A stretch of DNA of 64,000 nucleotides from Leifsonia tongyongensis (GTDB taxonomy: Bacteria > Actinomycetota > Actinomycetes > Actinomycetales > Microbacteriaceae): NCBI RefSeq assembly GCF_010686705.1, contig NZ_JAAGWY010000001.1:372001-436000 (forward strand). The letters run 5' to 3'. This document shows, in pieces, positions 11,183-51,000 of this stretch. Under the pieces are notes generated by a model. That model was not told where the DNA came from and did no database searches. It saw only the letters and a program-made list of their open reading frames with translations. How positions within the stretch are numbered: the stretch's first letter is position 1; every line of letters begins with the position of its first letter. The position numbers and the translations under genes are program-made.

Positions 11183-11246
11183 CGGCGCTCATCCCCTCGC
11201 TCGTACGATGCGCCGCGAACCGGCGCTAACGCAACCGTACCGAACG

Positions 11247-11420
11247 CTATGGCTTCTGAGGCAGCCCGCGGCGAGCGCGTTCCTCGGCCTCCATGCGAGC
11301 GTAGGCTTTACGTTCGGTGCGGTCTGCACGCACGATCGACCGCATCACGAGCCAGAAAAGCAGCCCCACGAGAATGGTCGGGGCAAGCGACCACACGATG
11401 CCGGTCCAGAGTTCGTTCAT
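11247..11420 (-). CDS. Small single-pass membrane protein
   Basis: Starting at the ATG at 11420 gives 57 residues: MNELWTGIVWSLAPTILVGL, then the rest of one membrane helix, and a charged tail (RADRTERKAYARMEAEER) typical of small lysine/arginine-rich actinobacterial membrane proteins. The open frame extends upstream but that part overlaps the divergent gene and reads as noise. Function unknown. Confidence 0.6.
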   Translation of the reverse strand: MNELWTGIVWSLAPTILVGLLFWLVMRSIVRADRTERKAYARMEAEERARRGLPQKP

Positions 11421-11447
11421 AACCCGATAATGGTAACGCGCACATCT

Positions 11448-12348
11448 GTGAACGGAGTTCCCGACGCCTCCCCTCTCCACCTTCCTCACCACCTGGCAGT
11501 TCGACCCGGTCGCCTTCGCAGCCATCATCGTCGCCGGCGGCCTCTACCTCGCCGGCGTCGTCTCCCTGCGCATCCGGGGTCATCGCTGGCCGCTCAGGCC
11601 AACCCTGGGATTCTTCCTGCTCGGCCTCGGCTCCTACGCCTGGGTGTGCTTCGGCTTCCTCGGTGCGTACAGCTCCGAGCTGCGGTGGGCGTTCACCACA
11701 CGGATCGCTTTGCTGCTCTTCGCAGTCCCCGGCCTGATCAGCCTCGGAAAGCCGGTCGCTCTGACACGGATCGTCCTGAGCGGGCTACCGCGCCGCACCG
11801 TCGATCGCATGCTCCGCTCCTGGCCCGTGCGTCTCTTCGGCAATGCGATCTTCGCGCCCCTGTTCGCGTGCGCGGTCTTCCTCGTCTTCCTCACCCCGAT
11901 CGCCGCGGTGCTCCGCGACAGCACGTGGTCGGAGTGGACCATCACGGTGCTCGTGCCCCTTGCCGGGATGCTCATGGTGCTTCCGATGGCCACGCACACG
12001 ATCATCCGGACCAGCCTCTTCATCACGGCGGAATTCCTCTTCGCCTTCGTCGAACTCCTGCTGGATGCGGTGCCCGGCATCCTCCTGCGCCTGAACGACA
12101 CCGTGCTCGACCACGCACCCGCCGTGCTCGGAAAGCTTCCGCTCTGGTTCCCGAACGCTCTGCACGACCAGCATCTCTCGGGCGACTTCCTGTGGTTCAT
12201 CGCCGAGATCGCGGACGTGCCCGTGCTGATCATCCTCTTCATCCGCTGGACGCAGAGCGACCGGCGCGAGGCGAAAAGTCTCGACGAGCTGACCGACGAG
12301 CAGATGGAAGAGCTCACGCGCGAGCATTTGCGCGGCCCGCGCGCCTGA
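11448..12348 (+). CDS. CtaG-like cytochrome c oxidase assembly membrane protein, apparent frameshift near the start
   Basis: The clean frame runs from about 11452 to 12348 (298 codons) and encodes a polytopic protein with about seven helices of the caa3/CtaG type (STFLTTWQFDPVAFAAIIVA, then MLMVLPMATHTIIRTSLF and DFLWFIAEIADVPVLIILF). That frame has no ATG, GTG or TTG before 11644, which would remove the first helix. A GTG at 11448 (and an ATG at 11430) opens the neighbouring frame as VNGVPDAS; deleting one C from the run CCCC near 11470 would join VNGVPDAS to LSTFLTTWQF. I therefore place the gene from 11448 and treat it as frameshifted or mis-sequenced. CtaG-type proteins help copper insertion into oxidase. 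Confidence 0.65.
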
Positions 12349-12399
12349 TCGGGCCCTGCGCCTGATCAGCCCGCACCTGATCAGGCAGAGACCTGCGGC

Positions 12400-13920
12400 T
12401 CAGCCCTGCTTGACGAGCGGGAAGAGGATGGTCTCGCGGATGCCGAGACCCGTGAGCGCCATCAGCAGGCGGTCGATGCCCATTCCGAGACCGCCGGTGG
12501 GCGGCATGCCGAATTCGAGCGCACGCAGGAACTCCTCGTCGAGACGCATCGCCTCCAGGTCGCCGGCCGCAGCGAGCCGCGCCTGCTCGACGAAACGCTC
12601 GCGCTGCACCACGGGGTCGATCAGCTCGGAGTAGCCGGTTGCGAGCTCGAAGCCGCGCACGTAAAGGTCCCACTTCTCGACGACACCTTCGCGCGAGCGG
12701 TGGGCACGGACGAGCGGGCTGGTGTCCACCGGGAAGTCCATCACGAACGTCGGGCGGACGAGGTTGCCCTTGACGAAGTGCTCCCACAGCTCCTCGACGT
12801 ACTTGCCGGGAAGCGGGTGCTCGATCTCGATCCCCTCACGGGCGGCGATGGCACGCAGGTCTTCCACAGGTGTCGCCGGAGTGATCTCTTCGCCGACTGC
12901 CTCTGAAAGGCTGTCGTACATGCGAATCCGATCCCATTCACCGCCGAGGTCGTACTCGGTGCCGTCGGCCCACGTCACCGTGTGCGAACCCGCGATGTCG
13001 AAGGCTGCGTTCTGCACCAGCGTCTGTGTGAGCTCGGCGATCACGTTGTAGTCGCCGTACGCCTCGTACGACTCGAGCATGGCGAACTCGGGGGAGTGCG
13101 TGGAGTCGGCGCCTTCATTGCGGAAGTTGCGGTTGATCTCGAAGACACGGTCGATGCCGCCGACCACGGCGCGCTTCAGGTAGAGCTCCGGTGCGATCCG
13201 CAGGAAGAGCTCCGTGTCGAAGGCGTTCGAGTGGGTCACGAAGGGGCGGGCGGATGCACCGCCGTGCATGACCTGCAGCATCGGGGTCTCGACCTCGATG
13301 TAACCGCGGTCGGCGAAGGTCTTGCGCAGGCTGGCGACGACCTTCGACCGGTTGACGACGTTGAGGCGCGCCTGGTCGCGGGCGATGAGGTCGAGGTAGC
13401 GGCTGCGGACGCGGCTCTCTTCGCTCAGTTCGTTGTGCAGGTTCGGCAGGGGAAGGATCGCCTTGGAGGCGATCGTCCACTCGCGCACCATGACCGACAA
13501 TTCGCCGCGGCGGCTCGAGACGACTTCGCCGAAGACGAAGAGGTGGTCGCCGAGGTCGACGAGCTCCTTCCAGCGGGCGAGGGAGTCCTCACCCACTTCT
13601 GCGAGAGACACCATGACCTGGATGCGCGTCCCGTCGCCAGCCTGAAGGACGGCGAAGCACAGCTTGCCGGTGTTGCGGAGGTGCACGACACGACCGGCGA
13701 TTCCCACGTCGACGCCCGAGGTCTCGTCGGCCTGCAGGTGGCCGAACTCTTCGCGCACAGCGGGGATGGTGTGCGTCACCGGAACCGCGACGGGATAGGC
13801 TCCGCCGGCCGGAGAAGCCGCCTCCTCGATGAGGCGGGCACGCTTGCCCAGCCGGACCGCCTTCTGCTCGCTGACCTCGTCGTCAGTGAGTTCGGGCTCG
13901 TTCTGCTGGGTATCGGTCAT
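12400..13920 (-). CDS. lysS: Lysyl-tRNA synthetase, class II
   Basis: The product has 506 residues. An OB-fold anticodon-binding domain (VGIAGRVVHLRNTGKLCFAVLQ) precedes the class II core with motif 2 (RNFRNEGADSTHSPEFAMLE) and motif 3 (GLGMGIDRLLMALTG). It charges tRNA-Lys. It lies downstream of panC in the same direction with 43 bp between them, an association common in Actinobacteria. Confidence 0.97.
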   Translation of the reverse strand: MTDTQQNEPELTDDEVSEQKAVRLGKRARLIEEAASPAGGAYPVAVPVTHTIPAVREEFGHLQADETSGVDVGIAGRVVHLRNTGKLCFAVLQAGDGTRIQVMVSLAEVGEDSLARWKELVDLGDHLFVFGEVVSSRRGELSVMVREWTIASKAILPLPNLHNELSEESRVRSRYLDLIARDQARLNVVNRSKVVASLRKTFADRGYIEVETPMLQVMHGGASARPFVTHSNAFDTELFLRIAPELYLKRAVVGGIDRVFEINRNFRNEGADSTHSPEFAMLESYEAYGDYNVIAELTQTLVQNAAFDIAGSHTVTWADGTEYDLGGEWDRIRMYDSLSEAVGEEITPATPVEDLRAIAAREGIEIEHPLPGKYVEELWEHFVKGNLVRPTFVMDFPVDTSPLVRAHRSREGVVEKWDLYVRGFELATGYSELIDPVVQRERFVEQARLAAAGDLEAMRLDEEFLRALEFGMPPTGGLGMGIDRLLMALTGLGIRETILFPLVKQG

Positions 13921-31234: not shown

Positions 31235-31307
31235 GGCTCTGTAGCTCAGTTGGTAGAGCGTTCGACTGAAAATCGAAAGGTCACCGGATCGATGCCGGTC
31301 GGAGCCA
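31235..31307 (+). tRNA. tRNA-Phe (GAA), probable integration site
   Basis: The acceptor GGCTCTG pairs with CGGAGCC; anticodon GAA at 31268-31270. CCA is not encoded, unlike in the two neighbours. An inward-facing tyrosine integrase starts 137 bp away, so the 3' end of this tRNA is the probable attB/attL of the island. Confidence 0.93.
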
Positions 31308-31310
31308 CTT

Positions 31311-31443: not shown

Positions 31444-32604
31444 TCAAATCAGGCCGTCGAGCCGTTGTCCCAGGACTTCTGCCGCCCGTGTCGATCCCTT
31501 GAGCGTGTTCATGTAGACATCCTGCGTCATCGACGGGTTCTCGTGACCGAGGTAGTCAGCGATCTCCGTTGCCGACAGACCCGCCTTGTCAAGGATCGTT
31601 GCCACGGTCTTGCGGAACGAGTGCGTATACAGGTCTGGATAGCCAAGATGATCGCGTCGATCCCGAATTTCACGCTGGGTGTTAGACGGGTCACGGAGTC
31701 TCATCAGAGGCGTGGGGAACAGCAGTGTGGTGAACTCCCCCAGCCGCTCATGCCGCCGACGAAGCAGGTCCATCGTTCTCGACGGAAGTGGAGTGACTCG
31801 TTCGGACTTCTCCGTCTTTGGAAATTCCTGTCGCACGACGCCCTTGCCATTCACTCGGACGTTGACGGCCACGACAGCGGCGGTCCCATCCTCAAAGTCG
31901 ACAGAGCTGACGTCGAGAGCGCACGCCTCGCCCACCCGCCAGCCGGAGGCGAGCATGAACTCGATCAGTTCGACGGTGTCCCACTTGTTCAAGTGAGCGT
32001 CAGCGCGCACTTTCGTCAAGAAGGAAGGGAGCTCGCCCAACGGGATGGCTTTTGCGGCACGCCGATTACCCTTGGGGCGGGAGATACGTTCGAGCTCACG
32101 GACAGGGTTTTTCTCGATGGCTCCGTTAATGACGGCCAACGACATCATGCCGCTCAGAGCCGAACGGCAATTCTTTGCCGCACCCGATCCGCTGTCCCTC
32201 TCGACGCCATTGATAAACCGCTGTAGCCGTGCGGGCTTGGCTTCTCCGAGGGCGAGGTCGCCGATCTTCGGCACAATGTGTGCAGTGACCGCATAGCCAT
32301 AGGTCTCCACCGTTCCGTCTGCCTTGCCGGCGTCCCGTTTGTGATCGAGGAACATCTGGGCGAGTACCCGCAACGTCGTGGTTGGCTTCAGCTCACCCGC
32401 CCAATCCTTCTCCGCCGTCGTGAGTGCCACCTTCAAGGCCGAGATGGCCCTGGCCTTACTCGGGCCATACTTTTCAACCTGGCGGGACTTCCCGTCGGAG
32501 AATCGATACCGCGTGCGTGCACGCCATTTGCCTACCTGCACCTCGGTGGCGTTAATGGTGCCGTACGTCCCGATCTCGGTCCTTGGTCGAGCCATCAGCG
32601 CCAC
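31444..32604 (-). CDS. Tyrosine-type site-specific integrase
   Basis: The product has 386 residues. An N-terminal SAM-like core-binding domain (TLRVLAQMFLDHKRDAGKADGTVETYGYAV) precedes the catalytic domain with Arg in LASGWRVGEACAL, His-x-x-Arg in YTHSFRKTVATIL, His in YLGHENPSMTQ and the nucleophile Tyr in DVYMN. It recombines attP with the tRNA-Phe end. The gene reads toward the tRNA, as in many actinobacterial integrative elements. Its start overlaps the XRE gene by 10 nt, so the regulator and integrase are co-transcribed. Confidence 0.93.
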   Translation of the reverse strand: MALMARPRTEIGTYGTINATEVQVGKWRARTRYRFSDGKSRQVEKYGPSKARAISALKVALTTAEKDWAGELKPTTTLRVLAQMFLDHKRDAGKADGTVETYGYAVTAHIVPKIGDLALGEAKPARLQRFINGVERDSGSGAAKNCRSALSGMMSLAVINGAIEKNPVRELERISRPKGNRRAAKAIPLGELPSFLTKVRADAHLNKWDTVELIEFMLASGWRVGEACALDVSSVDFEDGTAAVVAVNVRVNGKGVVRQEFPKTEKSERVTPLPSRTMDLLRRRHERLGEFTTLLFPTPLMRLRDPSNTQREIRDRRDHLGYPDLYTHSFRKTVATILDKAGLSATEIADYLGHENPSMTQDVYMNTLKGSTRAAEVLGQRLDGLI

Positions 32605-33742: not shown

Positions 33743-35545
33743 ATGAATGTACTGGCAGATGCCGAGAGTGACAAGGACGGCGACACGGCGCCGCAGATCG
33801 CCGCTTCAGGCACCGTGACAATGGCGATGCCGCTGGGCAAGCGCTCCCGCGAGCAGATCTTCCGCGAGACTACTGAGACCTACCTAGCAACCCTCGGGGC
33901 GTTCGGCCATGCCTCCCTTCCCACGCCCGAGGAGCTGGAGCCCCAGCTCATGTCGAGGATCGAGGGAGAGTTCGCCATGGAAAATATGGCGTTCAGAGCG
34001 GACGGGGGTGCCGGCGGCCGCCTGATGAAACCGTCATCGCTGCCTCCCATTGCGATCGCGATGGCTATGCGGAAGCTGTTTCGAATTGTCGTCATCCGCC
34101 CTTCCGGCACCTCCGAGGGGGAGGCCCGAGCGCGGGGGATGCTTGCACGCTACGAGACGACCGGGCCCGACGAGGGACTGTACGTCGGCCGGCCCGAGTA
34201 CATGCGCTCGATTGTCAGGCGGTTCAGCTCCGGCATGTCCAAGGAAGGCGCGAAACTTGTGTTCGACCTCGTGCGGAGTCACGCAGACGCCGTCGAGCCC
34301 AATGACAACCCTGACTTGATAGCGGTGAACAATGGCATCTTCGACTTCGTGAAAAAGGAACTGATGCCGTTCTCGTCAGAGCACGTCTTCCTCTCCAAGG
34401 TGCGCACTAACTACGACCGCAACGCGGTGACGTCTCCAATCATCACCAATCCAGATGGGACCGAATGGGAGATAGTGCAATGGACCGTCGATCTGTTCGA
34501 CGACGCTGAGCGCACCCAGCTCCTCTGGGAGGTATTGAGCGCGTCGGTGCGACCGCTGGTGAGGTGGAATAAGGCTGTTTACCCGTTCGATGAGGATGGG
34601 GAGAACGGGAAAGGAACATTCCTCGTACTGGTTCGCTGTCTCGTCGGAGCTGGCTCCTGGGTGTCAATACCGATCGCAGACTTCGCGAATAAGTTCCAGC
34701 TCGCGCAGATTGTGAATAAGAGCCTGGTCGTCACCGATGAGAACGACGTGGGTTCCTTCAGCGACAAACTCGCAAACTACAAGGCAGTCATCACGGGCGA
34801 CGTCATCACTATCGAGGAGAAGTTCGAGAATCCATATTCGTACGTACCGCACGTGTTCGTGATCGAGTGCCTGAACTCGTTTCCCAAGGCTAAGGACACG
34901 TCGCGATCGCACTATCGGCGGCAATTATTCTGGCCCTTCTCGAAGTCTTTCACTGGAAGCGCCAACTCGAGCATCAAGGAGGACTACCTGACGCGCCGGG
35001 AGGTTCTCGAATACGTCCTCCATCGTGTGCTGCACGCCGAGCCGTTCTACAAGCTCTCGGAGCCCAAAGCGAGCCGCAAGGTTCTGGGAGAGTTCAAGAA
35101 CCTAAACGATCCGGTACGCGCGTGCTGGGAGGACATCGAGCACCAATTGATCTGGGACCTGGTTCCGACCGCCTTTCTTTACGAGCTCTACGTGGCATGG
35201 ACTGAACGGTATGCACCGAACGGCAAGGCAGTCGGCATTGGCGAGTTCGGCCGGCGAATTGGGGCAATCGTTCGAGAGACCGGACATTGGGAGCAGGGCA
35301 CCTACCGCCCCGGTACGCAGATGAACGAACCTGAACTGCTCATCGAGCGCTTCGACCTGCGGAACTGGATGAATCCCAGCTACACGGGCACCGATCCCTC
35401 GAAGCGGTGCCAGCCCAAGCTCTTGGAGCGTTATCGCGGCTTCAAACGGAGCGCTACCTGGGTCGCCAACGTTGACGACGATGACGATGACAGCGATCTC
35501 GATCGAGCGCTTGACGTCGATTGCGACCTGCCCGCGGCCGCATAA
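33743..35545 (+). CDS. Phage/plasmid primase-helicase of the P4/D5 type
   Basis: The product has 600 residues. The SF3 helicase part carries a Walker A variant GENGKGTF (about residue 287), Walker B-like SLVVTDEND and the D5-N segment AVNNGIFDFVKKELMPFS before it. The C-terminal about 130 residues form the winged-helix tail of D5 primases (IWDLVPTAFLYELYVAW then VGIGEFGRRIGAIVRETGHW). No archaeal-type primase domain is obvious at the N-terminus. It should unwind and help prime replication of the excised element; the iteron cluster immediately downstream may be its origin. The tail is acidic (VDDDDDDSDLD). Confidence 0.85.
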   Translation: MNVLADAESDKDGDTAPQIAASGTVTMAMPLGKRSREQIFRETTETYLATLGAFGHASLPTPEELEPQLMSRIEGEFAMENMAFRADGGAGGRLMKPSSLPPIAIAMAMRKLFRIVVIRPSGTSEGEARARGMLARYETTGPDEGLYVGRPEYMRSIVRRFSSGMSKEGAKLVFDLVRSHADAVEPNDNPDLIAVNNGIFDFVKKELMPFSSEHVFLSKVRTNYDRNAVTSPIITNPDGTEWEIVQWTVDLFDDAERTQLLWEVLSASVRPLVRWNKAVYPFDEDGENGKGTFLVLVRCLVGAGSWVSIPIADFANKFQLAQIVNKSLVVTDENDVGSFSDKLANYKAVITGDVITIEEKFENPYSYVPHVFVIECLNSFPKAKDTSRSHYRRQLFWPFSKSFTGSANSSIKEDYLTRREVLEYVLHRVLHAEPFYKLSEPKASRKVLGEFKNLNDPVRACWEDIEHQLIWDLVPTAFLYELYVAWTERYAPNGKAVGIGEFGRRIGAIVRETGHWEQGTYRPGTQMNEPELLIERFDLRNWMNPSYTGTDPSKRCQPKLLERYRGFKRSATWVANVDDDDDDSDLDRALDVDCDLPAAA

Positions 35546-35957: not shown

Positions 35958-36839
35958 CTACTCGTCAACATCACCGTCGATGAACGCCTCAACCGCCCGC
36001 CGCACCTCAGCGTGCCGATCCTCTCGGATCGCCAAAACGGGCGCTCGTTCGTCCAACAGCGGATTTGCACCGATGAACCAGCGACGTGCCACCTCGCGGC
36101 CCTCAGCCGCCTCGAGCGCAATCCAGACGTGATTCGCGAACTGCGCGCGAATCCAAACCTCGGGCGCCAGTGACGGCCACTCTGAGCCGACCCACTCGTT
36201 CGGCTGATCACGAGGCACACCCGTTAACGCCGCAACCAGCGTCACGCCCAAGGCATTGTTGAGTTGACGTACGACGTCTCGCTTCCGACGAGCCTCGTTA
36301 GTCAATCTCTGAATCCGTTCGGTCGAGCGCAGCAACTCAACCGCCAGGGCAACGGGCATGCCCTTCGGGATTGCTGGAGCGGCTCGCTCGAGTTCGTCAG
36401 GGTCCACCCAATAGCCAGGCCAGCCCGAGGGGTGGTTGGCCCGTTTGATCCAGGGTTGCTTGCCCTCCACAAGATTGTGTCGAACGAGGAGCTCAATCAC
36501 GCTTACCCGGGCCCCACCCGTATCTGCCCACAGCCGCAGGTTCGCGATCACCGTCTCGTTGGGGTCCTTGACGATCGCCTTGAAAAGCTCCCGCTGGTGC
36601 TCGTCGAACTCGAACTCGTTCGGTACGACGTGGGTTGAACCCGTGTCGTCCGACGACTCCGGGTGCTTGTACTGCCGTTCCATCCAGTAACCAAAGGAAC
36701 CCTGGCACTTAGCTCCGGCAGGGCCACCTGGGGCCTCGTGACGCGCAAGGTATCCGAGCTCGGGGACGGCTTCCGTCGCCTGCGTGAAGTCGATGATGGC
36801 AATACCCTGCCCGCAGACTGGACAAGTCCCCTGCTTCAT
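35958..36839 (-). CDS. Zinc-ribbon protein with Xre/MbcA/ParS-like C-terminal domain
   Basis: The product has 293 residues. The N-terminus has CPVCGQG and a further Cys in AKCQGSFGYW, a likely zinc ribbon. A middle winged-helix-like segment (ANLRLWADTGGARVSVIELLVRHNLV) precedes the ending: an HTH-like ALGVTLVAALTGV and then ARRWFIGANPLLDERAPVLAIRED. That ending recurs in two other island proteins (42688-43089 and 45585-45962) and resembles DUF2384 antitoxins, which normally neutralise RES toxins; no RES toxin is seen. Function unknown. Confidence 0.65.
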   Translation of the reverse strand: MKQGTCPVCGQGIAIIDFTQATEAVPELGYLARHEAPGGPAGAKCQGSFGYWMERQYKHPESSDDTGSTHVVPNEFEFDEHQRELFKAIVKDPNETVIANLRLWADTGGARVSVIELLVRHNLVEGKQPWIKRANHPSGWPGYWVDPDELERAAPAIPKGMPVALAVELLRSTERIQRLTNEARRKRDVVRQLNNALGVTLVAALTGVPRDQPNEWVGSEWPSLAPEVWIRAQFANHVWIALEAAEGREVARRWFIGANPLLDERAPVLAIREDRHAEVRRAVEAFIDGDVDE

Positions 36840-37492: not shown

Positions 37493-38375
37493 ATCCTCAG
37501 CGCGTCAGGGTGTTTTCCTCCTCCGCCTCCTGTGCGGCAGTGACCGTCGGCTCCTCGCTGAGCTCCGGGAACCGTTCGGCGTTCCCGGTCGGAACCCCCA
37601 CCTCCCGCAGCTTCGGGGAAACGCTCCGTGCGGGGACAGCCCACGTTGCCGGCACGTAGTCGATGTTGGCAACGCTCTCTGCACGGAGCAGAAAGAGTCG
37701 TGTATTTAGAGCCCGGAGCCTGAGAAATGATTTCGGAAATGACTTTGGAAATCATTTCCGAAATGACATTCTTCCGTAGCGTGCGAACGGAAAGTTCCTG
37801 CCGATCTCGATGCGGCATCGTGCCTCACGAATTTGACCTCCCGCGGCAGAGATTCTCGAAACCTCTAGCCTCACTATTCGTCTGGGGATCAGATAGGCGA
37901 GTAGCGTCCGTGCGGGACTTCGATTCCGCATCGTTGTGAAGTCGACGAGCTGAGCTCCCCAGGCGCGCGAAGGCGCACCATGTGTGCACGCGAAAGCGAT
38001 AACCAGACGGCTTCGGGATGCACCCGCCCGCGTCGTCCGCCCCGGTTACCTGACAAGCTCAGCGCACGTTGGTAACCGATGCGAAGCGGAGCCGGAAGGG
38101 TCCGCAACGCGCACGACGAGACTCGTCCGCACCCTCGGTGCAGCGGGGTCTTGTCGTCTCGGAGGGGTGACCCACCAACGGTGGGGGGAGGTGCCAACCC
38201 TCCCCCGGGTGTCGGGCTGGAGGCCTGACCAAGCTGTTATCCGAAGACACGAGCGAAGCGATATGTCTGACAGATAAACTGCTTGCCGTACTTCTTGTAG
38301 GCTGGTACCACCCTCGCGGAGCGCGGGTAACACAGGACCAGGCTGCAAGAAGGACCGAGCGGAGGGGGCGGGCGG
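37493..38375. other. 883-bp gene-free region upstream of mobC, candidate oriT
   Basis: No ORF here has convincing composition. It holds a perfect 13-bp inverted repeat ATTTCGGAAATGA / TCATTTCCGAAAT (37730-37742 and 37752-37764), a TATGTCTGACAGATA near-palindrome near 38260 and an ACCCTCGCGGAGCGCGGGT hairpin near 38311. Origins of transfer usually lie next to mobC/relaxase genes and contain such repeats, so the nick site is probably here. Confidence 0.45.
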
Positions 38376-38894
38376 ATGACGCAGAACGATGAGGCGGGCG
38401 AAGCGACGCCGAAGCGTTCAAGGAAGAAGGCCGTCAACTTCGCGAAGCGCCGCACACTGCGATTCAGCGACGGCGAGGAACGAGTCGTCGACGACGTGCG
38501 GCGAGCCTTAGCCAAGTCCTCCGGACGCGACGTCGAAGACGTCTCCTTCAGCGAAGCTCTGCGGCTCATCATCACCAACAAGCCGGCCGTGGCCGATGTT
38601 GAAGCCAAGGCGCTCGCAATCGAGCGCAGCGGCACGGCATCAGCTGACTGGGGTCTCTACGCGATTTCCGATCGCCTCGCCTGGGAGCTGGGATATTTTC
38701 GGATCCATGTCGCTCGCATCGGTGGAAACCTGAACCAGATCGCCAAGCGTCTGAACATGGGCGACCCCGCGACCGCAGCCGAGATCTCCGAGGCGCTCGA
38801 GGGCGTCGCCGACATGCGAGTACTCCCCGACGAGATTGAACGGCGCATCGCGATCCTTGTCGGACATGGTCTCCCTCCTCGCGGAGCGGCGTAG
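38376..38894 (+). CDS. MobC-like mobilization accessory protein
   Basis: The product has 172 residues. The C-terminal half contains the MobC family motif (RIHVARIGGNLNQIAKRLNMG). The basic N-terminus (RSRKKAVNFAKRRTLRFSDGEE) probably binds DNA. MobC proteins open the oriT region and assist the relaxase. The relaxase start follows two bases after the stop, so the two are co-translated. Confidence 0.85.
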   Translation: MTQNDEAGEATPKRSRKKAVNFAKRRTLRFSDGEERVVDDVRRALAKSSGRDVEDVSFSEALRLIITNKPAVADVEAKALAIERSGTASADWGLYAISDRLAWELGYFRIHVARIGGNLNQIAKRLNMGDPATAAEISEALEGVADMRVLPDEIERRIAILVGHGLPPRGAA

Positions 38895-38896
38895 TC

Positions 38897-40414
38897 ATGG
38901 CCGTCGTTGTGGCGAGCTCAACCCGCATGGCGGATGCGCTCATCAACTACGCCCTCGACGACAAGCCCAACCAGCGCGGTGAGCGCTATGTGATGGCTTC
39001 CGGCGTCGGCGGGCTGCTCGTGTCCGTCGCCAAGGCCCAGATGCGTGATGTTCGCAAGAAGTGGGGCAAGGATCGACCGGGCGCCTTCGTTCAGGCCTAT
39101 CACGTCATCCAGAGCTTCGGGAAGCATGAGCTCCTGCCTGAGGATCCAGACTCCTGGATGACAGCGCAGACGCTGGGACGTGCCCTCGCCGAGGACCGCT
39201 TCCCCGGCCGGCAAACACTCGTAGTGACACAACGCGACGGCAAGACCGGGTGCCTCCACAACCACATCGTCGTCAACAGCATCGAGACCAGGACCGGCAA
39301 GAGCCTCAACAGCAGCATCGTCATGCATTCACGTCTCGTAGAAGCGCATGAGCGCGTCTTGGAGGCTGAAGGCTTCGAGCAGCGGGCTGACCTGAGGCGG
39401 GCGTTCTCCGACGCGCAGGACCGCCAGGAGCGCGGTGTACCTAGCGGGTTGCGACGAGCAGGATCGGTTGATGCCAGCGAACTTCACGAGTTCCAGCGCT
39501 ACTTGATCTGGGAAACGGAAAGCGCAGTTGCCGACGAGTATCGTCTCCCCCGCAATCCAGAGCCGTTCAGCGTTAACGTACTCAAAGGCTGCGCGCAACA
39601 GGCGATCGATGACCCAGCCTCGGTCGACTGGAAGTCCTTTGTAGACGCCGGCGTCAAGCATGGTGTCCGAATCGAGCAACGTGGCCAGAAGGGTCGAGGG
39701 ATCTCTTACGGAATGATGCGTGAGCAGCCGGATGGCACTCGTGCGGAGCCGTCTGCCAGCGATAGGCGCCGATCCACAACGCTTGGCGTCGAATATGAGA
39801 TGGACGCAGTCGAGCGCACCTGGGCGCAGAACATCGCGATGCAGCAAGCCCTAGTGGCGCCGGATCCGGTCGCCGCAGGGATCCATCTGAGTTCGGACGC
39901 AGCGACGCAGAAGCGCGGAACCGCCGAAGAACGGCTCCGCGCAGCGCTGGACGAGGTTGACCAGCTAACGAATGCAATGAGTCAGCGAATGATCGCGGAC
40001 TATCTCGCAGCCAAAAACTCGCATTCTGAGCCAGTGATTCCAACCCAAGTCCCAGATGATTCGAATGAAGCGGCTTCCACCCTGGAGAACGAGCCACTCG
40101 CGCCGCCCGTCGCTGAGGCAGAGACAATCGATCTCGAGGAGCCCGCGCCCGCCATGGTGGTGGAGTCCAGCCCATCCGAGGCTGTCGCCGCGGATCCAAA
40201 GAGACAAGCGGCGGCGACGCTTGAAGAGGATCTGCGGAAGATCAACCAACGGAACCGGCGCCTCGGCCTGCCGCTGGTATCACCTGAGGAGTTCAGCGCT
40301 AACCGCGCAATGTCCCCTGCGCAACGCAAGCGGAGACTCGAGCACCCTGAGTGGTTTGAAGAAGCGCAAGTCGATGACCAGCCCGGACTCACGGACCGCT
40401 TTTCGCTCGACTGA
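38897..40414 (+). CDS. MOB-P type relaxase (MobA/VirD2 family)
   Basis: The product has 505 residues. Motif I Tyr is probably in ALINYALDDK (residue 18); motif III is split as AFVQAYHVIQSF and TQRDGKTGCLHNHIVVNSI, giving the metal-binding histidines. The relaxase nicks oriT and leads the strand into the recipient. The C-terminal half is polar and Pro/Glu-rich without a visible helicase or primase domain. No type IV secretion genes are in the window, so the element must borrow a conjugation apparatus. Confidence 0.88.
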   Translation: MAVVVASSTRMADALINYALDDKPNQRGERYVMASGVGGLLVSVAKAQMRDVRKKWGKDRPGAFVQAYHVIQSFGKHELLPEDPDSWMTAQTLGRALAEDRFPGRQTLVVTQRDGKTGCLHNHIVVNSIETRTGKSLNSSIVMHSRLVEAHERVLEAEGFEQRADLRRAFSDAQDRQERGVPSGLRRAGSVDASELHEFQRYLIWETESAVADEYRLPRNPEPFSVNVLKGCAQQAIDDPASVDWKSFVDAGVKHGVRIEQRGQKGRGISYGMMREQPDGTRAEPSASDRRRSTTLGVEYEMDAVERTWAQNIAMQQALVAPDPVAAGIHLSSDAATQKRGTAEERLRAALDEVDQLTNAMSQRMIADYLAAKNSHSEPVIPTQVPDDSNEAASTLENEPLAPPVAEAETIDLEEPAPAMVVESSPSEAVAADPKRQAAATLEEDLRKINQRNRRLGLPLVSPEEFSANRAMSPAQRKRRLEHPEWFEEAQVDDQPGLTDRFSLD

Positions 40415-40431
40415 CAAGCGGCGACTTTTGT

Positions 40432-40687
40432 GGCCAGCAAACGGTCAGCCAGCGTCCAGCGGATGGCCAGAATATGGTCAGAATCTGGCCGCTGAAGCAT
40501 CTCGGCCAATTCGGTCGACACGTTGTCCAGCAAATGACCAGCTAGTGACCATCAGACGGTCAGCTGATGGTCAGACGACGCCCACTGTTGATCAAGAGTC
40601 CCTCTGGGCCGCGAGTGGTCAAAGTTTGTCCAGCAAACGGTCACAATTTGGCCAGTAAACGGTCACTTAACGCCCAGATGACGGCCA
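40432..40687. repeat. Array of about 22 GGYCA-type boxes with mostly 11-bp spacing
   Basis: Boxes of the form GGTCA, GGCCA, GTCCA or GACCA begin at 40432, 40443, 40454, 40465, 40476 and 40487, all 11 bp apart; then, after a few irregular steps, at 40525, 40536, 40547, 40558, 40569 and 40580, and again at 40617, 40628, 40639, 40650, 40661, 40672 and 40683. Bases after the box often read AGCAAAC or AGTAAAC. Eleven bp is about one helical turn, so all boxes face the same side. It lies just past the relaxase gene. Confidence 0.9.
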
Positions 40688-40725
40688 CAGCGGACCGGCT
40701 CGTGGTCACGGAATGGGGTCCGACA

Positions 40726-41298
40726 CTAATGACGACGGACTGACCCGAGCACGGGCTCCAGAAGTGCAAGTCCTGCTCCGATGGTCGCTCCCTCGATGAA
40801 CGATTCACCAAGGCGATGACTATATCGACGAAGCCGCGCGAGAAGCCGCTGAGGTTTGCTGGCTTGATGTGAGGGCAATCGCAACTGATCGCTGAACCAG
40901 GTGAGGGTCACTTCACCCTGATGCCATTCGGTCAGCTTGACCGCTGTTTGAATTCCGATGACCGCGGTGGCCTTGTCCGAGGACGCGGTCTGCATTTTCT
41001 GCGTCTGCTGGACCAACCATGCGCCGACTGCATGCTGATCCTTATCAAGTGCGAGGAGCAGTCTGGGGACCGCCAGGGAGAACTCGAAGTCAGGTCCGCG
41101 GGACCAGCGGAGTAGAGCCGGTCGCGCTAGGCCCCGCACCGAACGTTCCATGATCGAGAGCGCGTCCGCCACCATTGCCCGGCGTGAGTCAAGCCTTGCC
41201 GCGCGATCGCGACGTCGACTCTCGACGACGAAAAGGATGACGGTAACGAGAACGGTCAGGAAGGCAATCGAAATGCTGAGTGCCACGGGAATGTCCAT
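40726..41298 (-). CDS. Single-pass membrane protein of unknown function
   Basis: The product has 190 residues. One N-terminal helix (VALSISIAFLTVLVTVILFVV) is followed by an Arg-rich helical cytosolic part (ESRRRDRAARLDSRRAMVADAL) and a mixed domain ending in GESFIEGATIGAGLALLEPVLG. I recognise no family. It reads toward the 11-bp array. Confidence 0.6.
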   Translation of the reverse strand: MDIPVALSISIAFLTVLVTVILFVVESRRRDRAARLDSRRAMVADALSIMERSVRGLARPALLRWSRGPDFEFSLAVPRLLLALDKDQHAVGAWLVQQTQKMQTASSDKATAVIGIQTAVKLTEWHQGEVTLTWFSDQLRLPSHQASKPQRLLARLRRYSHRLGESFIEGATIGAGLALLEPVLGSVRRH

Positions 41299-42687: not shown

Positions 42688-43089
42688 TTAACTGATCATC
42701 GCGAATCGAGCAGCAACAAGTACATCGCTTGCCGCTTCGGGTGCTCGTTCTCTAAGGAAGCGCGAGGGCGATACGTCCCCAAGGAGCGGATTCATTCCTT
42801 TGAACCACGACTGGATCGTGACCGCGTCCCACCGTTCAAGAAGAATACCCAGCGCATGGAATGCCGTACGCAGACGAGCGTCGCTGTCTGCTGAGGGGAC
42901 AGCGCGGCCTTCCACCCAGGCTCCGACGACACTCGTTGTGCCCTCTCCCCCGATGTACGCGACGAGGCGCACACCAAGCACCTCCCTGCGACGCGTCGCG
43001 ATCTGAGCGATGGTGAGCTCTCGAGCTTCGTCGCCGGCACGACGCCACGACCCGTATTCGACAACGTCCATGTCGCTATGCTGCACCAT
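42688..43089 (-). CDS. HTH plus Xre/MbcA/ParS-like antitoxin-type protein (second of three)
   Basis: The product has 133 residues. An HTH-like region (IAQIATRRREVLGVRLVAYIGG) leads to ITIQSWFKGMNPLLGDVSPSRFLRE-type C-terminus (Trp-Phe-x-Gly-x-Asn-Pro-Leu-Leu). The same pattern ends the proteins at 35958-36839 and 45585-45962. It resembles DUF2384 antitoxins in layout. No toxin is adjacent; the rightward nuclease-fusion gene begins 179 bp beyond its start. Confidence 0.6.
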   Translation of the reverse strand: MVQHSDMDVVEYGSWRRAGDEARELTIAQIATRRREVLGVRLVAYIGGEGTTSVVGAWVEGRAVPSADSDARLRTAFHALGILLERWDAVTIQSWFKGMNPLLGDVSPSRFLRERAPEAASDVLVAARFAMIS

Positions 43090-43268: not shown

Positions 43269-44315
43269 ATGGAAAAAACTGGATCCGCCCACGAGCTGGG
43301 CGAAAACGGCAACTTTGAAGCTCGAGGCGACGGCCGCCGGCGGTTGACGATGACTTCACGACACCGACGACTCATCCGGTTAGAGAGGGATCTCGAAGAC
43401 GTCCTCGTGGCGAATCCGGAGCTTCTCGACGTGTTGATCATCGGCCGCCAGGTAAGGACGCCGAATGGCGCAATCGACCTGCTGGCCATCGATGCAACAG
43501 GGATCGTCCACATCATCGAGCTCAAGTTGGGCGACACCACGCCAAAGATCATCGCCCAGGTGCTGGACTACCACCACTGGTTGAAGGTTCAGAGCAGAGA
43601 CGAAATCATTCGGGTTGCCGCTCGCGCTCCCCTATACATGGACTTGCCGGCTGCGTTCGAAAAGTACTTCGGTCATCCGCTACCCGCCCCGATCAACCAT
43701 GCGCGAGTCATCACGATGGTCGCTGCATCTATCGATGCCAGAACGGGACGCAATATCCAGACCCTGAACGAAGAAAGATTCTCGATCCGAGCCTTCCGCT
43801 ATTTCGAGCAACGCGGCTCCGTCGGGCTCATTCCGCACGGCCACCCCGAGCAAGACATCCAGATCTCTGAAGTCGAAACGAGGCCAGTAGTGCTACCGGA
43901 ACGATCGACGCCGGCGGTTGCGGCGGTGTACCGGGCACGGGTCGACGCGGACATCCAACTGTTCTGGCAGATCTTCGCTGAGCGCTTCACCTGGACTTTC
44001 GTGCCATTCAGTTTCGTCTATGCGCTCTATGAACACTGGCACTATTCAGAATCAGCCCCAGTCAAACGCCTGCGCCCGTTTTCGATAGGGCAATTCGGCC
44101 GCCAGATGTCCGCACTGATCGCAGAATCCCACCAGTGGACGCGCCTTCGTCGCGCGCCCGAACAACTGATGGACTGCTACGAGCCGATGACAGCGGGATT
44201 GACGAATTGGACGCGCCCTGACGCTGAAAAGGTTGTGGTCGGGTATTTGAGGAACTCGATCCAAGAGCACGGCCATTCCGGTTGCTGCAAAGGCGATCTA
44301 CGGGCATTTGCGTAA
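43269..44315 (+). CDS. PD-(D/E)XK nuclease domain fused to a primase-type C-terminal domain
   Basis: The product has 348 residues. Residues 35-150 match a DUF91/NucS-like nuclease core (GAIDLLAIDATGIVHIIELKLGDTTPKI, with Asp70, Glu84 and Lys86 as the expected catalytic set). Residues about 235-310 (FTWTFVPFSFVYALYEHW then FSIGQFGRQMSALIAESHQW) closely follow the winged-helix tail of the island primase (IWDLVPTAFLYELYVAW, VGIGEFGRRIGAIVRETGHW). I know no standard family with this pairing. An inner start at 43350 is possible. The last 20 residues (HGHSGCCKGDLRAFA) look unnatural, so a frameshift near the end cannot be excluded. Confidence 0.65.
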   Translation: MEKTGSAHELGENGNFEARGDGRRRLTMTSRHRRLIRLERDLEDVLVANPELLDVLIIGRQVRTPNGAIDLLAIDATGIVHIIELKLGDTTPKIIAQVLDYHHWLKVQSRDEIIRVAARAPLYMDLPAAFEKYFGHPLPAPINHARVITMVAASIDARTGRNIQTLNEERFSIRAFRYFEQRGSVGLIPHGHPEQDIQISEVETRPVVLPERSTPAVAAVYRARVDADIQLFWQIFAERFTWTFVPFSFVYALYEHWHYSESAPVKRLRPFSIGQFGRQMSALIAESHQWTRLRRAPEQLMDCYEPMTAGLTNWTRPDAEKVVVGYLRNSIQEHGHSGCCKGDLRAFA

Positions 44316-44606: not shown

Positions 44607-45206
44607 TCACTCCCCCGCACCAACCTCGTCATTCTGGATCTGGCTCGGTTCAGATGCACGGAGAGTGATCAGCAGCGCTGGAAGTTCCTCCACCGAGTAC
44701 AGCACCGAGCGGGCCTTTGAGCCCTCGGCTGGGCCCACGACTCCGCGCGTCTCAAGCAACCCCATGAGCTCGCCAGCCTTCGCGAAACCGACCCGAAGCT
44801 TCCGCTGCAGCATCGATGTCGATCCGAATTGAGTGGAGACCACCAGTTCAGCCGCCCTCGCCAGAAGTTCCTGGTCATCCGAGCTTCCGGTGCTAACGCG
44901 CTGATCTGCCGCTGGCCCCTCGACTCCGCGCAGGTTTGCCCTTGCACGATCGAGCTGGGCGTTCACGTCGGCAAGCTCCGCCTGAGCATGGCGTAGTCTC
45001 GCCTGCGACTCGATCTCAGCGGTGGAGATGGAGACCCGCGACGCGGTTGTCGGTGCCATGCGGCCGTTCCTGCACCGATCTGCGGCGCCCTGCGAGCGAT
45101 GCTGAATCGAGCAACCCGGATGCGTCCATACCATCGCACGACGACGACTGGTCAGCGGAATGTAGAACCGCAGCGGACCAATCCCGAACCGAAACCCGAC
45201 ACCCAT
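44607..45206 (-). CDS. DUF4236 plus stand-alone FtsK gamma domain protein
   Basis: From ATG 45206 the product has 199 residues. The N-terminus [20 protein letters not shown] matches the short DUF4236 pattern. A coiled segment follows ([30 protein letters not shown]), then a complete FtsK-gamma winged helix ([56 protein letters not shown], residues about 120-180). In FtsK this domain reads KOPS-like sequences and steers the motor; here there is no motor. It may mark or guard DNA orientation, or interfere with host FtsK. Function is inferred. Confidence 0.75.
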
Positions 45207-45249
45207 GAACACACGATATCGGCAGGGCGCTTCATCGAGGTCCCCAGCC

Positions 45250-45441
45250 TCAGTACGCGTGAGCCTGGCTGGCAACGATCGTCACGAGAACCGCGAATCC
45301 GACCAGCGCCCAGATGCCCACCCCGATGATCTTCGACCGCCGATCTTCCCGCTTCCGGTCGTAGCCGCCGACATCCTGTGCGCCTGGTCGCCGGGCCCTG
45401 CGCCACGACAGGAAATCCCGTGACCTGTGGGAGATCGACAT
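45250..45441 (-). CDS. Small tail-anchored membrane protein
   Basis: The ORF encodes 63 residues with a basic N-terminal half ([15 protein letters not shown]) and one C-terminal helix ([20 protein letters not shown]). The helix looks real, the ribosome site is weak. Function unknown. Confidence 0.4.
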
Positions 45442-45584: not shown

Positions 45585-45962
45585 TCACCCGCTGAAGCCG
45601 TCCTCGACCATCGCTGCTGCTGCAGCGGCGGCCTCCTTGAATCGGTTCTCGCGAATCGCGTCCACCGGGGTGTCGTAGTCCAGCAGCGGATTCGACCCGA
45701 TGAACCACATGCGTGCGACGTTCTCGCCCTCGGACGCCGCTATCGCGAGCCATTGAGTGTGCGCGAACTGCAGACGACGCACGGCTTCGGCCTGCGGCTC
45801 CGGACCATCAAGTTGAGCCCATCTGTAGGTGATCTTCGGGTCTTCACTGCCAGCCAGAGAAGCGACGAGAGTCGCGCCGAGCGCGGAGTTCAAACGTCGC
45901 GTGATCTCGCGGATTCCGATGTTCGCGGATAACGCATGCGCGTCACGAGTTGTAGTAGCCAT
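45585..45962 (-). CDS. HTH plus Xre/MbcA/ParS-like antitoxin-type protein (third of three)
   Basis: From ATG 45962 the product has 125 residues. IREITRRLNSALGATLVASLAGSEDPKITYRWA is an HTH, and ARMWFIGSNPLLDYDTPVDAIRENR is the shared C-terminal core. It is the shortest of the three related island proteins and probably shows the minimal unit. The 55-residue gene just upstream ends at 45965, two bases before this start codon, so they are co-translated. Confidence 0.65.
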   Translation of the reverse strand: MATTTRDAHALSANIGIREITRRLNSALGATLVASLAGSEDPKITYRWAQLDGPEPQAEAVRRLQFAHTQWLAIAASEGENVARMWFIGSNPLLDYDTPVDAIRENRFKEAAAAAAAMVEDGFSG

Positions 45963-45964
45963 AT

Positions 45965-46132
45965 TCACTCGCTTGACTGGTTTGCATCCGATTGCTCCCA
46001 CGCCTTCAGCAATTGCTCTCGCCAGCCCTTCGGCGGCGGCCACAGGACACCCCAAGCTGCGAGCGTCGCACGCGTCCACCCTCCAGCAGGAGTCCGCGCG
46101 GCGCTGACCTCATCAGGACTAGGCAACGTCAT
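45965..46132 (-). CDS. Small protein with GGWTRATLAAWGVLWPPPKGW motif
   Basis: From ATG 46132 the product has 55 residues. Its core, a GGWT-helix-WGV-WPPPKGW pattern rich in Trp and Pro, is far from random and recalls small proteins of actinobacterial phages and islands whose role is unknown. It is tightly linked to the antitoxin-like gene downstream. An upstream GTG at 46150 is possible. Confidence 0.55.
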   Translation of the reverse strand: MTLPSPDEVSAARTPAGGWTRATLAAWGVLWPPPKGWREQLLKAWEQSDANQSSE

Positions 46133-47964: not shown

Positions 47965-48068
47965 ACGACCCGATCATGCTTCTTGCTGGCGGTACTGCAT
48001 AGGCGGCAGTGCCTTTACGACCCGATCATGCTTCTTGCTGGCGGTACTGCATAGGCGGCAGTGCCTTT
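47965..48068. repeat. 52-bp perfect tandem duplication at the end of the type ISP gene
   Basis: Units 47965-48016 and 48017-48068 appear identical and both contain CGATCATGCTTCTTGCTGGC. The unit holds the last ten codons of the minus-strand gene, so its stop region is duplicated. Fifty-two is not a multiple of three. Perfect identity means a recent event. Confidence 0.9.
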
Positions 48069-51000
48069 ACGATCCGAACCGTCTCAATGCTGACGGTGAT
48101 GATTCGCTGGACGAGTTCGACGATGTAGACCGGGTTGCTGTGCTCGGCGCCCCAGTCGTTAGGGTCGTTCACTATCCCGGACGGTTTGTCGGTCTTCACC
48201 TGGTACCGTTCGAGGACCCAATCGAGGGCGGACCGGGAGCCGATCTTATACTCGTGGGCTTCCTCGGGGATCCCGGTGATCGTCAGGCTGTTTGTGACGC
48301 GGATAGTTGTGCGATCGAGGTTGCCCGGCTTGCCTCCGTACCGCATTTTCTCGACACGAAGGTCAGCTGGTACCGGGCTGCTGAAGTCCACAGGATAAAG
48401 CGCTGCAGTCTCGTATCCGAGGTGCAGCTCCGACAAGGCGCGGCCGGCGGCAGCGAACACGAAGAAATCGGCTGGGTCTGCCAATTCGGGAATGCGGGGC
48501 AGCATCTTCTTGAGATCAGCACCGAACTCGTTTCTGTACTGCTCAGAGTGCAGCAGTCCGTAGACGGCGAAGAACACGTCATCGGGGGTTACGCTCTGCC
48601 CGTAGAGCTCTCGGTACCGGCCTAGGGCAGTGCCCGAGATGTTGTCGGTCCGGGTGGGATCGTCCCCCTCGATGTCCAGCGTGGGTTGTCCTGTGGCTGC
48701 TGAGAAGGACGAACGCGGGAAGAATTGTCCGGCGCTCCCGGCACCCGTCACGTGGAGATCAGGGGTTTTGTCGACCATAAGCACGGAAAAGGGTACCACC
48801 GAGTTCATCCCGACGATGTACATCCCAAAGTTCTCATCCGTGGGAAAGACGCGACTAATCTGGCCAGAAACCTCATTGAACGTGTTGTCCCAGTAGAACC
48901 ACTGGGAGTTAAACGGCCTGTAAGCAGCCTGCCGAACTGAAGAGGCCGAGAACTCAGCCTGACTCCCGCGCTCAGCGGCGCGGCGGAGCTTCCTCGACCA
49001 GCTAATTTTTCCTGAACTTCCGGCCAGATCATCCCCTAGACCGGATGCCGCGTCATTGAATGCTTTGATTGTCGACAACATGCTGGCACGAAGCCTGTTC
49101 TTCGAATAGTTGTAGACCCAAGCGTCTCGCGCAGAAGTAACCCCCTGGACGCGGATGCCGAACAGCTCGTCGATGGAAGTTAGCGACCCGAACAACTCAG
49201 ACCGTTGGCTAATCCAGTCACCATGCTCATTCGGAGTGACATGTTCCCATGGAACTCCGTCGACGCCCTGGTACTGCTTGAGTAAGCCGAACTTCTGATC
49301 GCGGGTGAGGTAGTCGCCGATGTCGCGGTATTTGATGGTTCCGGTGGCAGGCCTGTCCGGGTTCTTCACCAGAAGCGATATGACGATGGTAGCCCTGCTC
49401 CCGGGACCGAACGTCTGCCCGCCTTCTTTGAGCGCTTGCTCGCCGGAGGTGCGCGTGTTGCCGCGGAGGTTGAGGATGTATAGCTCCGTAAACTCCTCCT
49501 CCAGCGTGAGCCGGAGGCCCGCGGCGGTGTTGCTGTCGAGGAAGCCGCCGTTAGTCACATAGGCCACGATGCCGCGGTCTTTGATTCGGTCAGACGCCCA
49601 CCTGATGGCTCGAATATACGAGTCGTAGAGGTTGTTCTTGTTTTGGCCTGTCGACCGCGCTGCATATGTACTAGCGATCCGCAGATCCAGCGACGGGTAC
49701 TTGAGGTTCTGGTTGTTGTCGTTCGCGGAATCTTGCCCGGATGAGTAGGGCGGGTTGCCTACGATGACGCGGATATCTAGAGCGTTCTGATCCTTGACTC
49801 GCTGGTTGTTGTCACCGAAGATGCCCTCGTCGTCGTACTTGTCGTCATCTTCCGAGGACTGAAACGTGTCCGTGAGTACGATGCCGGGGAACGCGACGTA
49901 TTCGCCGCCCTGCATTGAGTTGTATGTCGCTTCGATATTAACGGCGGCGACGTAGTACGCCAGCAGCACGATCTCGTTGGCGTGCAGCTCGTACCGGAAC
50001 TTCCGCGCCATGTCCTCGGGCTTGATTAGCCCCGACTGTAGGAGTCTGACGATGAAGGTGCCGGTTCCTGTGAAGGGATCCAGCACGTGCACGCCCTCAT
50101 CCGTCAGGCCGACTCCGAAGTGATCACGGGACAGCTCATCGGCGGAGCGCAAGATAAAGTCCACGATCTCGTTCGGCGTGTATACGATGCCGAGCCGCTC
50201 CGAGGTGTTCCTGAACGCGCCGGTGAAGAATTTCTCGTACAGTCGCTTGATAGTGGTCTGCTTGCCCGCGGCGTCAGTGATGCCTGTGACAGCACGCTGA
50301 ACGCCCGCATAAAAGTTGGTGAGGTCCGTTGTTTCGGTGTCGAGGTTCTGTTGCTCAAGCGCGTTCACCATGCCCTGCATGACCTGGGAGACAGGGTTGT
50401 GGTCGGAGAACGCATGCTCCGAGAAGAGGGCATCGAACACAGGCTGCGTGATTAGGTGCTGGGAGAGCATCTCGACCGCCTGCGCTTCGGTAATCGACGG
50501 ATTCAGGTTGTCCTGGAGCCCTTTCACGAACCGAGTGAACGCGGTCCGAAGGTCCGGGTTGGAGCCGTCAACGAGCCCGGTAATCCGCGTCATCTGGCGG
50601 CCGGCGATCTCAGCGACGTCTTTTGCCCAGTTCTCCCAATAGTCGCGTTCGCCTACCTTGTCGACGATCTTGGCGTAGATAGCGCTCTGCCAGTCCGCGC
50701 CGAGGATCGACATGTCCAGGGGAACCTGGGTAGAGTCGGGGGTGCCGCTTTCCGCCGGGGTGCCAGGCAGGCCGCTGTCGGACTGCCAGGTTGCGATGAC
50801 TGGTCCGTCACCGGTTCGAGCGTTGAGGTCGATCTGCTCGATCTTGGCCTCGAAGCGTTCGTCGTGAGCACGAAGCGCCCGTAACACGTCCCATACGACC
50901 TTGAACTTGCGGTTGTCGTTGAGGGCCTGCTCCGGTGTCTGGCCGGCCGGGATGGCGATTGGGAGAACGATGTAACCGTAATCCTTGTCCGGGGCCTTCC

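Follow-up and report, generated by a model that had tools for sequence, protein, structure and literature searches.

What protein reads the long row of 11-bp-phased boxes that follows a relaxase gene in Leifsonia tongyongensis, and to what end? The row lies in the window analysed here, a 64,000-nucleotide stretch (contig NZ_JAAGWY010000001.1, positions 372,001 to 436,000) of a 4.05 Mb genome held in 8 contigs; it recurs in related elements and is linked to a mobC-relaxase operon. From sequence comparison we put at roughly one in two (0.5) the probability that the array is a multi-copy cis site of the mobilization module, bound by MobC and having an accessory or stability role like those of TraM, StbA or ParR. 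A preliminary description had proposed a centromere-like, origin of transfer (oriT)-accessory or replication-control array bound by MobC or by the FtsK-gamma protein; MobC is retained from that list as the favoured binder, whereas FtsK-gamma, and likewise binding by the Rep protein, is disfavoured.

The array starts directly 3' of the relaxase gene, as first described, with its first box 17 bp past the relaxase stop (40414). It comprises 23 direct boxes of the form [TC]GN[CT]C (YGNYC) on the + strand at 40431-40708, where about 22 at 40432-40687 had been reported; the array itself stands, and its end lies slightly further out. The GGYCA core given earlier is too narrow, since that exact sequence occurs in only 13 boxes; the core is [TC]GN[CT]CA. 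Across the 23 boxes position 1 is T in 13 and C in 10, position 3 is G in 15, position 4 is C in 13 and T in 10, the sixth and closing position is A in 21 and position 7 is G in 12, while the search pattern itself sets position 2 to G and position 5 to C. The boxes are laid out as follows.

40431..40496, + strand: sub-array 1, six boxes at exactly 11 bp (TGGCCA, CGGTCA, CGTCCA, TGGCCA, TGGTCA, TGGCCG)
40503..40522, + strand: two off-phase boxes, CGGCCA at 40503 and CGGTCG at 40512
40524..40599, + strand: sub-array 2, six boxes at 11 bp (40524-40579), then TGATCA 10 bp further (40589)
40616..40692, + strand: sub-array 3, seven boxes at 11 bp (40616-40682)
40703..40708, + strand: last box, TGGTCA, 21 bp past the preceding box

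Between and around the three exact 11-bp runs (6, 6 and 7 boxes) the spacing slips to 17, 9, 12, 10, 27 and 21 bp, so that the placement of every box on one helix face holds inside the exact runs and fails across the whole array. DNA has about 10.5 bp per turn, and an 11-bp spacing therefore drifts slowly on the helix even within a run. The repeat is not coding, because 11 is no multiple of 3.

Autocorrelation against shuffled sequence, the check suggested with the preliminary description, gave a lag-11 identity over 40427-40710 of 0.451 versus a mean of 0.252 (300 dinucleotide shuffles, z 7.5), with z 6.9 at lag 22 and z 3.6 at lag 33. The lag-11 value lies above every shuffle, the maximum over lags 5-44 being 0.377 in 2000 shuffles, and the array is the top lag-11 site of the window. 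Up to 320 bp past the relaxase stop there are 23 YGNYC boxes versus 6.2 in shuffles, and 16 pairs exactly 11 bp apart versus 0.11, a count that none of 3000 shuffles reached. The maximum of such pairs per 150 bp is 11 in the array and at most 3 elsewhere in the window on both strands (150-bp stretches with 5 or 6 pairs overlap the array and are counted as array), and at most 2 in the 79.5 kb that follow the window on its right. Used as the query of a BLAST-type search, the array DNA matched itself and nothing else.

The array sits in an integrated, probably mobilizable element, which runs from tRNA-Phe through a tyrosine integrase, a helix-turn-helix gene, a D5/DUF5906 Rep, a 293-aa gene, an oriT-like block, mobC, the relaxase gene and the array to a cargo that includes an exonuclease-BRCT protein, a NucS-like protein (below the Pfam cut-off) and the FtsK-gamma protein. 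The parts that enter the argument are these.

31444..32604, - strand: tyrosine integrase, adjoining tRNA-Phe (31235-31308)
33743..35545, + strand: D5/DUF5906 primase-helicase (Rep), from Pfam
38205..38319, + strand: oriT-like block upstream of mobC, kept in G302, G128, L016 and L017 and partly in L065, so labelled from position and conservation only
38376..38894, + strand: mobC, encoding an accessory protein of the relaxosome (Pfam MobC above its cut-off at E 1e-6; motif IGGNLNQIAKRLN)
38897..40414, + strand: relaxase with a MobA/VirD2-like nuclease domain (PF03432, E 2.1e-16)
44607..45275, - strand: FtsK-gamma-domain protein, from Pfam

Relatives were sought through the relaxase and through MobC. 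In a first family search, 12 of the 398 genomes gave a relaxase match, its own included, of which only G128 (61%) and G302 (55%) were close, and a scan of GTDB contigs gave three close loci: L016 and L018, which are the same element, and L017, both elements being labelled Microbacterium. MobC matches came from 1 of 7, 1 of 5, 3 of 54, 8 of 366 and 2 of 396 genomes (the last including its own), and a search of 296 genomes matched its own genome alone (cut-offs 1e-8, or 1e-12 for the 396-genome and 1e-10 for the 296-genome set). Thirteen distinct MobC elements were compared (the window, G302, G128, L016, L017, L058, L059, L060, L061, L065, L067, L068 and L069). Copies were left out, namely L018 and L064 (99.95% identical to the L016 element), L050-L052 likewise, and L066, a near copy of L065 (99.6%) whose relaxase frame is split in two; ten loci with remote relaxases (L062, L063, L084-L091) were counted apart. 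Relatives were read in stretches of about 14-39 kb, and shared genes were compared from open reading frames of at least 80 aa. Four scans of viral contigs gave no relatives, and neither plasmid searches with the window MobC, the L069 MobC, the L069 relaxase and the L090 relaxase nor a phage search with the window MobC gave a match. The window relaxase matched 623 plasmid records, mostly from Enterococcus, Staphylococcus and Lactococcus, all below 60% identity and none covering 80% of the relaxase.

Arrays are carried by 10 of the 13 elements. Alignment with related elements, also suggested beforehand, bore out recurrence in part: boxes follow the relaxase in G302, L016 and L017, but G128 and L065/L066 have none, and the absence from conserved relatives that had been named beforehand as a refutation is thus seen in part. 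G302, L016, L017 and the window form clade A, with a YGNYC array just 3' of the relaxase gene; lag-11 YGNYC pairs at this place number 7 versus 0.20 in shuffles for G302, 6 versus 0.16 for L016 and 4 versus 0.19 for L017, each count being reached by 0 of 3000 shuffles. Over 229 aligned bases the arrays of L016 and L017 share 58.5% identity, several box cores matching by eye where the spacers differ. In clade C (L059, L060) two arrays, about 450 bp in length, lie upstream of mobC, between it and rep, with TGCCA and GGACA boxes and commonest lags of 11, 21 and 32, or about 10.5 bp per box. In clade B (L061, L067, L068, L069) GAGACCACC-, GNYC- and GACRC-type boxes (also given as GAGAC-, GACRC- or GNYC-type) lie at 11 bp, again between rep and mobC. 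L067 (17 pairs versus 2.51) and L068 (8 versus 0.09) are counted as array-bearing because their box tests exceeded all 3000 shuffles; their 4-mer scores equal single control maxima (L067 23, one of five Markov maxima also 23; L068 25, one control-lag maximum also 25). Only the tests of G302, L016 and L017, with the motif from the window, and of L068, with the motif from L069, are independent; the clade B and C stretches were picked after inspection, and L090, below, was tested with the window motif after its array had been seen. As an observation in its own right, the GAGACCACC pairs of L061 (oriented, 6513-6910) form part of a higher-order repeat, five copies at a period of exactly 94 bp, suggesting recent amplification.

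Periodicity and box tests found no array in G128, L065/L066 or L058; the nominal YGNYC excess of L058 (9 pairs versus 4.44 in shuffles, P 0.04) was not counted as one. At the array's expected place in G128, about 150-230 bp past the relaxase stop, stands a 9-bp CTTGCTTGC tandem repeat in seven perfect copies. L065 (G1103) holds PRTase-CE and ORC-CDC6-like genes at 10499-13244 within its MobC element, probably a conflict or defence pair. The motif-free 4-mer periodicity scan misses the arrays of G302, L016 and L017, its top places lying elsewhere in their stretches; these arrays stand out with the window-derived box and in a single-base lag-11/22 scan, which finds no better-scoring position elsewhere for the window, G302 and L016, 30 for L017 and 112 for L064 (the L016 copy in a longer stretch); and a stacked-column scan gives a clear 11-bp signal above its null in the window (2.8 standard deviations at period 11, 3.4 at 22) and L069 (1.2), the best period-11 place in G302, L016, L017 and G128 being off the array site and below the null maximum.

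Among the ten remote-relaxase loci there is one long array, in L090, and one set of four 11-bp repeats, in L089 just upstream of a Rep_OBD gene. In L090, CTCGGTCGAAG-like units fill about 490 bp from 6 bp past the relaxase stop, with 29 CGGT and 17 lag-11 pairs versus 0.107 in shuffles (maximum 3 in 2000), or 8 pairs versus 0.56 (maximum 5) with the window YGNYC pattern; its relaxase is below the Pfam cut-off (E 0.0057). In L085 the 4-mer score is slightly raised (27 versus a control maximum of 24), with no clear unit in the stretch.

The genes that travel with the array point to MobC. Common to all four clade-A array elements (stretches of 15-39 kb) are only mobC, the relaxase gene and the oriT-like block. 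The integrase is a tyrosine type in the window and L016 and serine-recombinase-like by eye in G302 and L017; the rep position is held by D5 in the window, G302 and L017 and by the unrelated c9 in L016; the small c3 gene is not in the window, and cargo differs among elements. Box type follows MobC clade (YGNYC in A; GAGAC-, GACRC- and GNYC-type in B; TGCCA and GGACA in C) better than it follows Rep type or host genus. MobC is the natural candidate for the binder because it is encoded in an operon with the relaxase, carries the NLNQIA motif and an N-terminus resembling a ribbon-helix-helix (RHH) protein, and belongs to the module that stays with the boxes. The earlier suggestion of MobC thus gains indirect support, from the sharing of mobC, relaxase and oriT-like block and from the match of box type to MobC clade, and we infer that MobC most likely binds the array, presumably as a multimer. 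A single box-like TGACCA within the oriT-like block at 38226 (TGACCG in L017, not kept in L065) lends this weak support.

The window MobC scores 29.6 bits against Pfam MobC (cut-off 23.2) and carries the LxxugxNlNQiaxxLn motif. Its RHH-like N-terminus includes a KRRTLRF strand invariant in five close members, with a strand-helix-helix order seen by eye, and 4 of 12 family members have a NikA-like match (best E 0.0027). The gene upstream of the L090 relaxase matches Pfam MobC and RHH_1, both over the cut-off, and hhalign pairs the RHH part of its product with the N-terminal region of the window MobC family at a probability of 73% (E 3e-5). The window MobC had no match in L062 or L063, nor had four MobC queries in L084-L091; as L089 and L090 still encode MobC- or NikA-like proteins, such misses are no proof that a remote locus lacks MobC.

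Known systems offer partial parallels. The 11-bp direct repeats fit the likeness to R1-type parC (about 10-11 bp) drawn in the preliminary description, but no ParM lies beside the array; the statement there that no parM or parR is visible holds among the 20 window open reading frames scanned, none of which has a parM or parR Pfam match. In excerpts of PMC9426499, ParR of R1 and pB171 is an RHH protein that forms a higher-order complex on parC direct repeats of 10-11 bp, other ParR sites having 17- or 20-bp repeats. Both systems thus have short direct repeats, and the window MobC looks like an RHH protein, the fold of ParR; the window array, in contrast, is not upstream of parM and is tied to mob genes. 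In R1, ParM and ParR are reported to interact with the relaxase TraI and to stimulate it, so that one complex can serve both partition and transfer. The stbDRs of R388, according to passages of PMC3098194, are 9-bp direct repeats spaced by 2 (an 11-bp period) near mobility genes and bound by a plasmid protein, StbA, which acts with them on stability and transfer, the motor-like StbB being dispensable for stability. The 11-bp period beside mob genes is common to both; however, the stbDRs form two sets of five around a promoter where the window has 23 boxes 3' of the relaxase gene, and StbA, called in the same passages a homologue of RP4 TraK, belongs to a family other than the window MobC. In F, TraM is an RHH protein (excerpt of PMC6514445) that binds several oriT sites and is needed for efficient transfer, though not for relaxosome formation (excerpt of PMC12117103); its three sbm sites lie inside oriT, whereas the long window array lies about 2 kb from the oriT-like block. 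MobC of RA3 is, in the abstract of PMC4175270, a 176-aa, dimeric DNA-binding protein of the RHH superfamily with the LxxugxNlNQiaxxLn motif; RA3 and the window have similar MobC sizes, the NlNQia motif and a mobC-relaxase operon by oriT (in the window, oriT-like).

Alternatively, the array could be a replication origin or copy-number iterons bound by the D5-type helicase-primase, akin to the repeats known from P4-type satellites, which we consider doubtful while giving it real weight. The rep position holds D5 or c9 in all 10 array-bearing elements and neither in two of the three array-less ones (G128, L065) in the stretches read, an association (3/78, about 0.04 under random assignment) that is one test among several, needs c9 (L016, L069) counted as Rep from its position and a Walker-A-like motif seen by eye, and leans, as a hypothesis, towards a role in the excised form as it replicates. 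The clade B and C arrays lie between rep and mobC, the L089 repeats stand just upstream of a Rep_OBD gene, and a second window protein (43269-44315) and its G302 counterpart share the D5 C-terminal domain. However, L058 has D5 and no array, and the window array is 5 kb from rep. Rep-bound iterons would have box type matching Rep type, and among these few elements, with c9 provisionally taken as Rep, the two did not agree. Rep types differ within a single box type, which disfavours Rep as the binder: L016 has c9, yet its YGNYC boxes are those of D5 elements. L016 and L069 share c9 (58%) but their boxes differ. L059 and L060 have arrays 90%, MobC 91% and relaxases 78% identical, against D5 proteins only 38.5% identical, and are sisters in the MobC tree (100/99) where the D5 tree has them on separate long branches at an open fork. 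The window D5 groups with L058, L061 and L062 at 83/87, below the tool's starred level, and is 39% identical to that of L061 versus 31-32% to those of G302 and L017, whose boxes the window matches.

A centromere-like stability site read by an unrecognised island or host adaptor other than MobC is distinctly unlikely: array presence does go with Rep-bearing elements, but beyond mobC and relaxase no gene is common to the four clade-A elements in the stretches read, and unlike boxes in elements of one genus, g85, speak against a single host factor; these elements are copies of the L016 element (G914, G986 and G1029, 99.97-100% identical over 3.5 kb) and L067-L069 (G874, G952, G920). An operator or promoter-proximal array for the neighbouring gene seems very improbable; G302, L016 and L017 have a same-strand open frame starting shortly past the array, but the next frame in the window (40726-41298) is convergent, so that the array is not upstream of it, and the gene downstream in G302 and the window differs from that in L016 and L017. 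TraB-type translocases read TraB recognition sequence (TRS) repeats, and the FtsK-gamma gene is in this island too, some 4 kb from the array, yet a site of this kind is barely credible here. A cognate gamma protein would be expected wherever the array occurs, and the FtsK-gamma protein, earlier named as a binder, has no match in the stretches of G302, L016 and L017, which bear arrays, or of G128 and L018. With the gamma domain of a 953-aa FtsK-type open frame elsewhere in the same genome, that of the FtsK-gamma protein shares 62% identity, which suggests an ordinary specificity of the KOPS (FtsK-orienting polar sequence) type.

Several points weigh against MobC itself. G128 has no array although its MobC is 72% identical and has the same KRRTLRF strand, and L065/L066 and the clade-B L058 likewise have MobC without one. 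The presence of an array follows Rep no less closely than it does MobC (c9 having no Pfam or PHROG match), and the boxes could follow MobC clade by hitch-hiking, the array being linked to mob genes. According to the abstract of PMC4175270, the site of RA3 MobC is one imperfect palindrome in the promoter of its own gene, and an array is not mentioned. The predicted MobC structure is of poor quality, with a mean pLDDT of 66.7, and a PDB fold search with it gave no solved structure at E 0.001; PcfF is a weak sequence match (E 0.55). The numbers are small, at 13 elements.

If MobC does read the array, this RHH-like accessory protein would bind the boxes to form a regular nucleoprotein row on the DNA, resembling TraM at sbm, ParR at parC and StbA at stbDRs. 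Working together with the oriT-like block, which is 2 kb upstream, this complex would either aid relaxosome assembly and docking on the coupling protein of a helper or ensure stable inheritance of the excised form while it replicates; the association with Rep-bearing elements slightly favours the stability role. A TraG/VirD4-type coupling-protein gene on contig C5 (PF12696, E 8e-27) is a possible helper.

Other features of the island were noted alongside. About 110 kb to the right, at G000:C1:512847-512904, the 3' region of tRNA-Phe recurs in part (88% over 58 bp); an open reading frame in between looks like a serine recombinase, and the island may be composite. The protein at 43269-44315 (+) joins a NucS-like part (below the Pfam cut-off) to a C-terminal part matching the C-terminal domain of D5-type Rep, and might compete with Rep at an origin; a similar protein stands about 0.9 kb past the array in G302. 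Between the Rep region and mobC, 37724-37766 holds 3.6 copies of a 12-bp unit (GAAATGATTTCG), a possible operator or iterons, and a 52-bp tandem repeat of 2.2-2.6 copies (47965-48097) overlaps the 3' end of a Type ISP restriction gene. Three genes on the - strand (35958-36839, 42688-43089 and 45585-46079) have alike C-terminal domains, the first and third by clustering and the second by eye, presumably of the MbcA/ParS antitoxin type.

To our knowledge, how actinobacterial mobilizable islands dock on a helper and survive after excision has been little studied. Among the matches listed from open-licence PMC literature, judged by titles and the starts of abstracts, none described such arrays in actinobacterial mobilizable elements. 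We suggest, tentatively, that the array may be a general cis element of these islands, in which MobC would also serve as an adaptor of the ParR/StbA kind on a long helix-phased array. The boxes would then change along with MobC, and a single complex would serve both transfer and the segregation of the excised, replicating form and set island incompatibility. A large, recurrent and clade-specific array linked to mobC is in any case a concrete, testable cis site, and the natural series of MobC/box pairs, of at least three types, offers a way to follow the joint change of an accessory protein and the DNA site that goes with it.
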